A stretch of DNA of 64,000 nucleotides. Source: Demequina silvatica. GTDB taxonomy: Bacteria > Actinomycetota > Actinomycetes > Actinomycetales > Demequinaceae. The notes below the pieces were generated by a model. The model searched no databases. It saw only the letters and a program-made list of their open reading frames with translations, and had not been told where the DNA came from. Positions 3,778 to 6,894 of the stretch are shown one piece after another. The stretch's first letter is position 1, and each line of letters begins with the position of its first letter. The stretch covers positions 186,001-250,000 of the forward strand of contig NZ_BBMA01000002.1 of the NCBI RefSeq assembly GCF_000971215.1, given 5' to 3'. Both the position numbers and the translations under genes were made by a program.

Positions 3778-3999
3778 TCACTTGTAGCGGTAGACGATCC
3801 GGCCGCGGGACAGGTCATAGGGGCTGAGCTCCACCACCACGCGGTCCTCGGGGAGGATCCTGATGTAGTGCTGGCGCATCTTGCCGGAGATGTGAGCGAG
3901 CACCAGGTGCCCGTTCGTCAGCTCCACTCGGAACGAAGCGTTCGGCAGTGCTTCCACCACCACGCCCTCGACCTCGATGACTCCGTCTTTCTTGGCCAT
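3778..3999 (-). CDS. infA: Translation initiation factor IF-1
   Basis: IF-1 blocks the ribosomal A site during initiation and supports IF-2 and IF-3. The product is 73 residues ([20 protein letters not shown] to [10 protein letters not shown]), a single S1-type OB fold of standard length. I place the start at the ATG of MAKKDG; a longer frame upstream is not conserved. A strong promoter (TTGAGA, 17 bp, TATAGT at 4057-4085) gives a leader of about 50 nt, so infA starts its own unit here instead of being read only from the secY-adk-map genes. Confidence 0.97.
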
Positions 4000-4056
4000 T
4001 ACTCCGCTAACGTTGGTTGACAGGGAATGCGGGCGCGCAAAAACGCCCAACGGAAA

Positions 4057-4085
4057 ACTATACGGCAATCTCCGGCCCGTCTCAA
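4057..4085 (-). promoter_or_regulatory. Promoter of the infA-rpmJ-rpsM-rpsK-rpoA-rplQ-truA unit
   Basis: On the minus strand there is TTGAGA (4080-4085), a 17-bp spacer and TATAGT (4057-4062). This is one of the closest matches to the housekeeping consensus in the window. The predicted transcription start is near 4050, about 50 nt before the infA ATG. Confidence 0.75.
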
Positions 4086-4146: not shown

Positions 4147-4452
4147 TCAGCGGAACGAGTTGCGCAGGCGCTGCACCGCGAGACCCGAGATGCGCGGGTC
4201 GCGGTGGTCGGCGAGCCGGCGGACCACCGACGAGGGGGTGCGCGCGTTGCCGAGCAGCGCGCTCAGCACGTCGAGGCTCGAGTCGTGTCCCAGCGACACG
4301 AGGGCGCCCATGGGGCAGTCGCTGCGGGCGGCGACGGCCGCCCGCACGTGCGGGTCGCGATGGACCGCGAGCGGCAGGAGCTCGGAGCCGCTGATCTCAG
4401 GGTTGAGCGCCCGCACCACGTCCTCGGATGCCCCGCTGGCCGGAACCACCAC
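4147..4452 (-). CDS. Short LRV/HEAT-like repeat protein (copy A)
   Basis: This 101-residue protein consists of about three helical repeats of roughly 24 residues. Visible units are HRDPHVRAAVAARSDCPMG, LVSLGHDSSLDVLSALLGN and VVRRLADHRDPRISGLAVQR. The pattern resembles the leucine-rich-repeat-variant (LRV) and HEAT families, which form solenoids for protein binding. The GTG start has a good GGGAGG site six bases upstream. It is the first and shortest of three paralogues between infA and map. It carries a single Cys, in the shared RxDCPxG motif. The partner and function are unknown. Confidence 0.75.
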   Translation of the reverse strand: MVVPASGASEDVVRALNPEISGSELLPLAVHRDPHVRAAVAARSDCPMGALVSLGHDSSLDVLSALLGNARTPSSVVRRLADHRDPRISGLAVQRLRNSFR

Positions 4453-4587
4453 CGCGTACCTCCCGCACTTGTCCTTTGGGAAAGTATCCTCCGAGTCCCC
4501 TGGATCCGGGCAAATCTCTGTGAGGAATCAGACATGCCGTCACGTATCCGACACACGGCTCCTCCGGCGGGGGCCCGCGCGCTCCCG

Positions 4588-5208
4588 TCAGTGCGCGGGT
4601 CGCGGGGGCTGCCGAGGCGGCACGGCGGGCCTAGGCGGGAGCACGCGGTCGGGGCGGTCCCCCACGGGCGAGCGCTCCTGCGGCGGCGCGCCCCGCGGGG
4701 TCGACGGGCGGTCCGCGAGCTCGGCGAGGCCCGCGCCCCGCGCGACGCCGGAGGTCCCGCCCGGGGCGGCGACCACCTCGCCCGAGAGCGAACGGCGCGC
4801 GAGCCGCGCCACCTCCTCGCGACGGTGAGCCGCGAGCCGCTCGAGCACCGTGCGCGGCGTGGCCGAGTTCCGCGCCAGCGCCTTGAGCACGGACAGATCG
4901 CGGTCGAGCGCGAGCACCCCCGCGATCGCTCCCGCGAGTCCCGCGCCCGACGCGAGCGCCACCCGCACGGAGGCGCGCCTGTCGTGCGCGAGCGTGGCCT
5001 GCATGCCCAGCGGGCAGTCGGGACGCGCCGCGATCGCCTCGCGCACCGCGGGCTCACGGTGCTCCACCAGCACGAACAGGCGCTCGCGCGGCAGCCCGTC
5101 GGACCGCGCCTCCATGACCACCGCCCGCAGGCCGTCGTCGCGCGCCTCGCCCGCCACCGGCACTCCGGATGCTGCCATCAGCGCCCGGGACCACCCGTCG
5201 TCGCCCAC
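4588..5208 (-). CDS. LRV/HEAT-like repeat protein (copy B)
   Basis: The 206-residue product has repeats in residues 40-145, for example VEHREPAVREAIAARPDCPLG, LAHDRRASVRVALASG and VLERLAAHRREEVARLA. The last 60 residues are rich in Pro, Arg and Gly and look disordered (ending PRPAVPPRQPPRPAH). A GGGAGG site precedes the GTG start. It shares the RxDCPxG motif and repeat register with its two neighbours, so the three probably arose by tandem duplication. No catalytic residues or signal peptide are visible. A cytoplasmic scaffold role is inferred. Confidence 0.75.
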   Translation of the reverse strand: MGDDGWSRALMAASGVPVAGEARDDGLRAVVMEARSDGLPRERLFVLVEHREPAVREAIAARPDCPLGMQATLAHDRRASVRVALASGAGLAGAIAGVLALDRDLSVLKALARNSATPRTVLERLAAHRREEVARLARRSLSGEVVAAPGGTSGVARGAGLAELADRPSTPRGAPPQERSPVGDRPDRVLPPRPAVPPRQPPRPAH

Positions 5209-5314
5209 CGTGTCCTCCCGCTCTCGGTGACGGGAGGCTAGGCGCCGCGGATGAGCAACGCCTGTCGCTCAGGTGACGGGCCGGTTGCGAGCGGGCGAAG
5301 CGTGGGTAGCGGGC

Positions 5315-5935
5315 CTAAGCGTCGATGGGCGGACGGAAGCCGCGGACCGGCGCCGTGCGCGTGGGCCGGGGCATCAGCGGCTCACCCTGCTCGACGTGCG
5401 GATCGGCCGCCGCCATCGCCTCATCGGCGGCCGCCTCGAGGCTCGCCGCGGCGCTCTCCGCCAGCATCGCCGCGCGGCGCGCCTGCGACTCCTCGAACAC
5501 GCGGTCACGCAGCTCGGGCGTGTGCCGGTCCTCGCCCGCCGCGGCGAGGGCACGGGCGTCGAGGGCCGCGCCGGCCGCCGTCCTCACCTCGCCCTTCCTG
5601 TGCGACGCGAGGATCTCGAGCACGTCCTGCGTGACCGCCGGGTTGCCCGCGACCGCGCACGCCACCGCCGGCTGGCGGTCGTGGGCGAGGTAATCGAGGA
5701 TCGAGTGCAGCACCTTGGGGTTCGCGGCCATCGCGGCCCGTACCGGCACCGCGTGGTCGTGCGCGAGCGTCACCATCAGCCCGAACGGGCAGTCCTCGCG
5801 CCGGGCGATCGCCTCACGCACCAGCGCGTTGCGCGATCCGCCCAGCTCCTGGATCCGTTCCTTGGCCAGCCCCGGTGCGGCCGCCTCCTCGACGTCCGCG
5901 CTCGCTCCGGGAGCATAGGAAAACCCTCGCGCCAT
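5315..5935 (-). CDS. LRV/HEAT-like repeat protein (copy C)
   Basis: The 206-residue product has four to five clear repeats between residues 35 and 130: VREAIARREDCPFGLMVTL, VPVRAAMAANPKVLHSILDY, PAVACAVAGNPAVTQDVLEI and ASHRKGEVRTAAG. A predicted coiled, Ala/Glu-rich helix follows (about 150-185), then a Pro/Arg tail. The ATG follows GAGGAGGGG. The regular N-P-x(5)-L repeat signature makes this the best-preserved member of the trio. Function is unknown; by family it should bind protein or possibly nucleic acid. Confidence 0.78.
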   Translation of the reverse strand: MARGFSYAPGASADVEEAAAPGLAKERIQELGGSRNALVREAIARREDCPFGLMVTLAHDHAVPVRAAMAANPKVLHSILDYLAHDRQPAVACAVAGNPAVTQDVLEILASHRKGEVRTAAGAALDARALAAAGEDRHTPELRDRVFEESQARRAAMLAESAAASLEAAADEAMAAADPHVEQGEPLMPRPTRTAPVRGFRPPIDA

Positions 5936-6084
5936 GGCGCCCCTCCTCAGCAGGCCGGCGTCGGGAGCGCCGGTTGAGGCGACGCTAACCCGCCTGTTTT
6001 GCGCCTGGATACCGCGGAGGTAACGCTTGCGTGAACGCGTGTGCGGTGGGCCACACCAGGGACGATGCGCGGGTCGCCGCTCCC
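5936..6084 (-). other. Intergenic region between map and the LRV genes
   Basis: This 149-nt gap holds a TAGCGT -10-like box near 5977-5982 on the minus strand, which could serve LRV copy C, and an exact GGACGATGCG word at 6060-6069. I see no convincing terminator for the secY-adk-map unit. Confidence 0.4.
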
Positions 6085-6894
6085 CTAGGGCGCGACGGGC
6101 GTGACGCCGAGGGGCGCGAGCCGGGACGCGCCGCCGTCGGCGGCGGTCAGCACCCAGATGCCGTCCTCGTGCACGGCGATCGAGTGCTCCCAGTGGGCGG
6201 CGCGCGAGCCGTCGAGCGAGACGACCGTCCACTCGTCGTTGAGGACCGCCGAATCGGGGGTGCCGATCACCAGCATGGGCTCGATCGCGAGGCACATGCC
6301 GGGCTTCACGCGCGGGCTGCGGCCGCGCACCCGGTAGTTGGGGACGTCGGGCTCCATGTGCATCTCGGTGCCGATGCCGTGGCCCACATAGCCCTCGAGC
6401 GGGTGGAGCCTGGCCTCGTCGGCCACGTCCTCGATCGCGGCCGAGACGTCGGAGATGCGATCCGCGGTGGCGAGGGCGGCGATGCCGGCCCACAGCGCGC
6501 GCTCGGTCGCCTTCACGAGCGCGAGGTCGGCCTTCGCGAGCGGCTCCCCCACGATGAAGGAGATCGCGCTGTCGCCGTGCCAGCCCTCGACGATCGCACC
6601 GCAGTCCACCGACACCAGGTCGCCCTCGGCGAGCACCCGGTCGCCGGGGATGCCGTGGACGACCTCCTCGTTGACGGAGACGCACGCGGTCGCGGGGAAG
6701 CCGTGGTAGCCGAGGAAGTTCGACGTGGCGCCGGCCTCCGCGATGACGCGTGACGCGGCGGCATCCAGGTCGCCGGTGGTGGCGCCGGGCACGGCGGCCT
6801 CCTTCGCGGCGGCGAGCGCGCGCTGGACGATCACGCCGGCGCGGGCCATCACCCGCATCTCCTCGCGGGACTTCAGCTGGATGCGTCCCGACAT
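6085..6894 (-). CDS. map: Type I methionine aminopeptidase
   Basis: The enzyme removes the initiator methionine from nascent proteins. The 269 residues contain the five metal ligands of the pita-bread fold: two Asp in LVSVDCGAIVEGWHGDSAI, His in YVGHGIGTEMH, Glu in CLAIEPM and Glu in the final HWEHSIAV segment. There is no N-terminal zinc-finger extension, so it is the short type Ia form. It follows adk by 2 nt, in the conserved secY-adk-map order. The ATG is well supported. Confidence 0.97.
   Translation of the reverse strand: MSGRIQLKSREEMRVMARAGVIVQRALAAAKEAAVPGATTGDLDAAASRVIAEAGATSNFLGYHGFPATACVSVNEEVVHGIPGDRVLAEGDLVSVDCGAIVEGWHGDSAISFIVGEPLAKADLALVKATERALWAGIAALATADRISDVSAAIEDVADEARLHPLEGYVGHGIGTEMHMEPDVPNYRVRGRSPRVKPGMCLAIEPMLVIGTPDSAVLNDEWTVVSLDGSRAAHWEHSIAVHEDGIWVLTAADGGASRLAPLGVTPVAP

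Follow-up and report, generated by a model that had tools for sequence, protein, structure and literature searches.

What are three small repeat-protein genes doing between map and infA in Demequina silvatica? We analyzed a stretch of 64,000 nucleotides from its 2.92-Mb genome (hereafter the window), in which the open reading frames (ORFs) and their translations give the minus-strand order secY-adk-map-A-B-C-infA-rpsM-rpsK-rpoA (Table 1). A first-pass annotation of this DNA had described A, B, and C as three paralogous LRV/HEAT-repeat genes and had suggested that they form a cassette acting on ribosomes or RNA polymerase. We recover the three genes but favor another account of their position. 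With a probability of about 0.6, A, B, and C are lineage-specific LRV adaptor or scaffold proteins that occupy a permissive operon boundary.

Table 1. Features of the map-infA interval and its neighbors in the window.
Feature	Position	Strand	Description and evidence
LRV gene A	5315-5935	minus	206 aa, ATG start; ORF; aligned orthologues; AlphaFold model; dN/dS
LRV gene B	4588-5208	minus	206 aa, GTG start; ORF; alignment; dN/dS; tree clade
LRV gene C	4147-4452	minus	101 aa, GTG start, alternative start 4449; Pfam; AlphaFold; dN/dS; profile search
map (methionine aminopeptidase), neighbor upstream of A	6085-6894	minus	
infA (IF-1), neighbor downstream of C	3778-3999	minus	
map-A intergenic region, likely promoter/regulatory region of A	5936-6084	minus	alignment; role inferred
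A-B intergenic region, likely promoter region of B	5209-5314	minus	alignment; role inferred
Conserved block ahead of C, likely regulatory site and -10	4483-4534	minus	TGTCTGATTCCTCACA (4519-4534) and GATACT (4483-4488)
infA promoter TTGAGA-17-TATAGT	4057-4085	minus	
Inverted repeat GGGCGTTTTTGCGCGCCC in infA leader, just downstream of promoter	4031-4048	minus	

The three genes are paralogues: A and B share 44% identity (E = 2e-19), and A also matches C (E = 1e-10). All three proteins carry a version of the R-x-D-C-P-x-G motif (REDCPFG, RPDCPLG, and RSDCPMG), as had been noticed, whereas the N-P-x5-L repeats reported alongside it are clear only in A and appear as variants in B and C. Their ribosome sites (GAGGAGG, GGGAGGA, and GGGAGGT) are all as strong as first read, and alignment shows these Shine-Dalgarno sites to be conserved among relatives. 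For C, we prefer the start at 4452 over that at 4449 because two Demequina orthologues have ATG at the matching codon. The frames are also under purifying selection, without which the original proposal would have lost its footing. Compared with five close species, A gives dN/dS values of 0.14-0.47, B of 0.11-0.31, and C of 0.05-0.16, and map gives 0.06-0.19; C, the most conserved of the three, is constrained to the same degree as map. Differences from the nearest relative (L105) at codon positions 1/2/3 number 17/12/70 in A, 21/15/89 in B, and 3/3/21 in C, most of them at third positions. Given the retained reading frames and dN/dS values of 0.05-0.47, these are not chance ORFs. The genes have orthologues across Demequina as a whole, those of A at 28 named Demequina loci. 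Among the named relatives of A, which all belong to Demequina or to closely related MAGs, D. phytophila is the closest (87% protein identity).

Each protein contains 3.5-4 LRV repeats of ~25 residues; in A, about four repeats lie between the N-terminal motif and a variable linker, which the C-terminal motif follows. C passes the Pfam LRV model PF01816 (31.8 bits, cut-off 21.6). In hmmscan, A and B of the window reach 20.7 and 17.4 bits against LRV_2 (PF25591), under the cut-off of 27, and A's frame scored 28.6 against the same cut-off in a genome search that included neighboring stretches. By curated model, membership of the LRV repeat family (PF01816/PF25591) holds for C and is weaker for A and B. 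LRV_2 is matched at E ≤ 0.01 by 20 of the 24 A orthologues and 9 of the 19 B orthologues, and at this level most A, B, and C orthologues hit PF01816 and/or PF25591. An NCBIfam search with the three proteins gave nothing above cut-off. Structure prediction, a check proposed in the first-pass annotation, returned confident helical solenoids for A (core pLDDT 90-98) and C (mean pLDDT 90) with AlphaFold2. Helix pairs recur every 25-26 residues in both models, as in a two-layer solenoid built of 24- to 26-residue repeats. The top fold match of both is 1lrv, with modest E values (4.6e-3 and 0.19). It is also the best solved structure by profile (E = 0.012 with the C profile), and HEAT/ARM proteins are the next-best fold matches. 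Of the two repeat classes originally named, LRV is thus the one borne out, by Pfam, profile, and fold matches, whereas HEAT (PF02985/PF13646) stays below cut-off (C scores 18.0 bits against HEAT_2, cut-off 27.7) and is matched weakly by a minority of A, B, and C orthologues. From models and sequence matches, we place A, B, and C as predicted LRV-type helical solenoids.

The R-x-D-C-P-x-G motif belongs to the LRV repeat. The motif cysteine, counted by eye in the alignments, is present in 19/19 B sequences, 20/23 C and D-type sequences (D is introduced below), and 13/24 A sequences. We considered a metal or Fe-S role for this residue and ruled it out, since 11 of the 24 A orthologues lack it. 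Nor is there an Azotobacter-type Fe-S cysteine cluster in A or C, each of which has a single core cysteine.

The Azotobacter vinelandii LRV protein (1lrv) is alike in fold, profile, and ~25-residue repeats (pattern VRxAVAxNPxxPxxxLxxLAxD). It carries an N-terminal iron-sulphur cluster domain. A, B, and C differ from 1lrv in having fewer repeats (3.5-4), other terminal motifs, and another genomic setting. Elsewhere in the order, in the few frames that are clearly readable, LRV_2 forms a single short domain within a longer protein that looks membrane-anchored or multidomain; A, B, and C, by contrast, are small proteins in which the solenoid runs nearly from end to end. They share a general architecture with HEAT/ARM adaptors such as the PP2A A-subunit and importin-alpha but are far shorter, and their HEAT matches are weak. 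To our knowledge, almost no functions have been assigned to the LRV repeat class.

The finding holds for the whole family Demequinaceae, which is placed in the order Micrococcales, and is broader than could be seen from one sequence. In a phylogenetic survey of the locus, also proposed at the outset, a C profile found matches in 47/47 Demequinaceae genomes and 3/3 genera. Among the 30 best C-profile loci, 29 have infA downstream of C, at 101-251 nt where the contig is not cut short; in the one exception, a SipW/TasA-like cluster stands between C and infA. A tree of 95 LRV copies from 25 Demequina genomes contains a C clade (support 99/98), a B clade (99/92; 20 rows), and a D type that is sister to C (97/91), and the remaining copies at the map-infA locus are mostly A. 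Tree and alignments together indicate that the orthologous groups A, B, and C are older than the genus Demequina.

Genes at the site generally follow the order map-A-(D)-B-C-infA. Across the 25 Demequina genomes, there are 1 to 6 copies and single members have been lost, so that three is not a fixed number. In the other genera, one genome (G177) has adk-C-infA, another (G318) has a C-like gene between map and C, followed by infA, and a genome of 1.1 Mb (G319) has kept LRV genes in the order adk-A-C-infA. The map gene is absent from the secY-adk cluster in both G177 and G319 (L133:5470-6700, L258), and the only MAP of G177 is a distant one elsewhere (37% identity). Separately, SipW/TasA-like (alternate-signal-peptide) clusters with a signal peptidase lie within the map-infA interval of two Demequina (L043:7128-11312 and L196:4116-8559), one after C and the other between A and B. 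The Demequina genome G010 encodes an all-LRV protein of 465-489 aa with many repeats per chain (L065:4350-5819).

In 297 genomes of the order, matches to the A profile outside the family were weak and mostly to longer frames, and none lay by map where the position of map was known. The C profile, run against 297 genomes of the class, gave only nine scattered weak matches outside Demequinaceae. LRV proteins do exist outside Demequinaceae, and none of those checked is at the map-infA site.

Could the genes simply be a decaying or near-neutral tandem duplication of little function, kept by chance at a tolerant site? Copy-number variation, fast-evolving linkers, and individual losses would all be expected of such genes. 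The dN/dS values of C and B (0.05-0.31) are nevertheless well under 1, Shine-Dalgarno sites and upstream blocks are conserved, and all 47 genomes are positive. Selection and retention largely refute this explanation, which we regard as very improbable.

The position between map and infA had been read as an intrusion into a standard actinobacterial order, with map usually directly before infA. Related loci outside Demequinaceae (n = 21) bear this out only in part: the two genes are 148-273 nt apart in nine, but 1321 nt apart in one, and in eleven there is no infA within about 1.5 kb of map. Several of these loci have unrelated genes after map, for example an EPS glycosyltransferase gene and ABC-transporter genes (names read from translations). 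This spacing and these unrelated inserts mark the map-infA junction as a recurrent breakpoint, of which the LRV genes are the family-specific occupant.

LRV genes also occur at a second locus. The window's genome has a divergent copy (C15:74752) that is flanked by a PfkB-type kinase gene and xseA; G177 has fumC-LRV-pfkB-LRV-xseA, and a similar locus is present in G001 (gene names again from translations). This second locus, with a PfkB-type kinase gene flanked by LRV genes in the stretch from fumC to xseA, is conserved in the family and represented by L004 (G000:C15:74752), L134, and L060. These paralogues indicate that the LRV family is not tied to ribosomal genes. The first-pass annotation had taken recurrence of the same trio at unrelated loci as the observation that would count against a ribosomal role; family members do lie at a non-ribosomal locus, although as paralogues and not as the same trio.

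A lineage-specific factor associated with the ribosome or translation initiation (or with SecY and nascent chains) would explain the fixed place between map and infA. It would fit the infA synteny at 29 of the 30 best C loci, kept in three genera, the persistence of C between adk and infA where the locus has no map, and a constraint on C like that on map. Set against these are a copy number of 1-6 with repeated loss of single members, a separate conserved upstream region for each gene, and the paralogues beside pfkB and xseA. Moreover, searches of Pfam, NCBIfam, and PDB found no homology to known ribosome-associated or transcription factors. We consider such a factor unlikely, and the data lend no support to the proposal of a cassette acting on ribosomes or RNA polymerase: location is all that points there, the junction is often broken, and a second locus exists.

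The arrangement of upstream sequences also bears on how the genes are expressed. In the window, A, B, and C are each preceded by a gap of about 105-150 nt, and alignment reveals blocks in these gaps that are identical among close Demequina while the flanks diverge. Those of the map-A gap are CATCGTCCCTGGTGTGG, GTTCAC..CGTTAC, GGGCAAAG, and TAGCGT, and those of the A-B gap are CAGCCGTTGCTCA and CCTAGCCTC. Ahead of C, the 16-mer TGTCTGATTCCTCACA fits the consensus TGTCTGnTTCnTCACA, which is shared by 11 close Demequina sequences, the window included. The 16-mer was not found in more distant species, and the genome contains it just once when up to one mismatch is allowed. We infer from these alignments that A, B, and C are transcribed from separate putative promoters, and the separate conserved block upstream of each gene speaks against their being simply co-transcribed with secY-adk-map. 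By eye, we ruled out a small coding gene in the B-C gap (ATGTCTGATTCC...), as substitutions there lack a three-base pattern.

The near-consensus infA promoter reported earlier is present and conserved in the family. TTGAGA-17-TATAGT is the sole sigma-70-like site in 6.6 kb (expected 0.1), and the 29 C loci that have infA within range score 8-10 of 12. Among 10 outgroup infA genes tested, none has an equivalent promoter at that place, a pattern that fits a gain of promoter strength in the Demequinaceae lineage. Just downstream, the GGGCG...CGCCC repeat (GGGCGTTTTTGCGCGCCC) is conserved through Demequina, with changes in other genera, and is possibly a 5'-UTR hairpin of infA. Rfam detected no RNA family at gathering threshold in the map-infA interval, the infA leader repeat included.

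The ends of A are conserved. A has the end motifs MARGFNYAPGAS and RTAPVRGF; in the orthologue alignment, the N-terminal motif is MARGFxYAPGAS and the C-terminal motif is RPTRTAPVRGFRPP in most species. These motifs persist even though the linker joining core and tail varies in length and sequence. B has an N-terminal WSRALMAASG motif, an LRV core with an invariant cysteine, and a variable tail ending around APRPxV, and an ELRDR/ELRER motif after the core is common to A and B in many species. The end motifs of A, and to a lesser extent those of B, look like putative docking motifs. Almost all RTAPVRGF-type tails belong to A at the map-infA locus. In G001, the map-side A has no tail, and a paralogue beside fumC ends in RPTRQAPVRGF (RPTRQAPVRGFKPAR); with the tail on the second-locus paralogue instead of the map-side A, it behaves as a transferable functional element. 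We rejected RTAPVRGF as a widespread motif. APVRGF recurs just once in the window's genome (C13:12382), in an apparently non-coding frame. Matches to a wider tail pattern at other loci in the 47 genomes were mostly APMSGY-type artefacts of the degenerate pattern, with a few further matches (G317:C3, G316:C154, and G313:C1). Extended C proteins in some species start with PFRGF. One Demequina clade has a C with an N-terminal extension of ~300 residues that starts MxQxRxPFRGF (L260:8211-9446, L129:9834-11132).

Motifs of this kind raise the possibility that A, B, and C (with D-type proteins) form a heteromeric or head-to-tail assembly, in which one chain docks by its RTAPVRGF tail or its MARGF end in the solenoid groove of the next. 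Ancient paralogues that remain co-located, RGF motifs at either end of A and N-terminally in extended C, and the post-core ELRDR/ELRER motif that A and B of many species share would all suit such an assembly. The AlphaFold monomer of A shows its tails at low confidence and undocked, however, and some species have a tail-less A or a single gene. We regard self-assembly as a tentative and rather improbable reading.

Our preferred reading remains that of adaptor or scaffold proteins, to which confident solenoids, family-wide retention, purifying selection, and conserved A termini despite a variable linker all point. A, B, and C most likely belong to a known kind of protein, and a partner-binding adaptor role is suggested by the general behavior of alpha-solenoids. 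They would be small soluble LRV-type alpha-solenoids that arose by duplication in the Demequinaceae ancestor, with the copies retained at the boundary of the map and infA operons. Each short solenoid may offer a binding surface to a protein or peptide partner, and the conserved short motifs at the otherwise disordered ends of A (less so of B) may dock elsewhere, possibly on one another. Each gene would be transcribed from its own upstream region, and infA from its own strong promoter. Their location would then reflect insertion where two essential operons meet at a permissive boundary, and not a ribosomal function, since the junction is broken in related families too and accepts unrelated inserts. 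Against this account, the very tight map-A-(D)-B-C-infA order exceeds what is expected of a merely neutral landing site, and LRV repeats could bind nucleic acid as well.

A literature search returned nothing on the Azotobacter LRV protein, on LRV repeats as solenoids, or on secY/adk/infA in Actinobacteria. For leucine rich repeat variant proteins, it gave a single plant paper and, from a bacterial angle, mainly work on host immunity; the Demequina papers listed were mostly taxonomy or genome announcements.

Demequinaceae thus provide an example of a highly conserved bacterial gene cluster taking up and keeping lineage-specific genes at an operon boundary. They also offer a clean, family-wide orthologous LRV set with docking-like motifs that is usable as bait. 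A bolder idea, which we think quite unlikely, is a family-specific, RGF-docking solenoid assembly locked beside infA by an action on translation initiation, N-terminal processing, or SecY-bound nascent chains. If true, that assembly would add a clade-restricted accessory layer to a machine that is otherwise universal.
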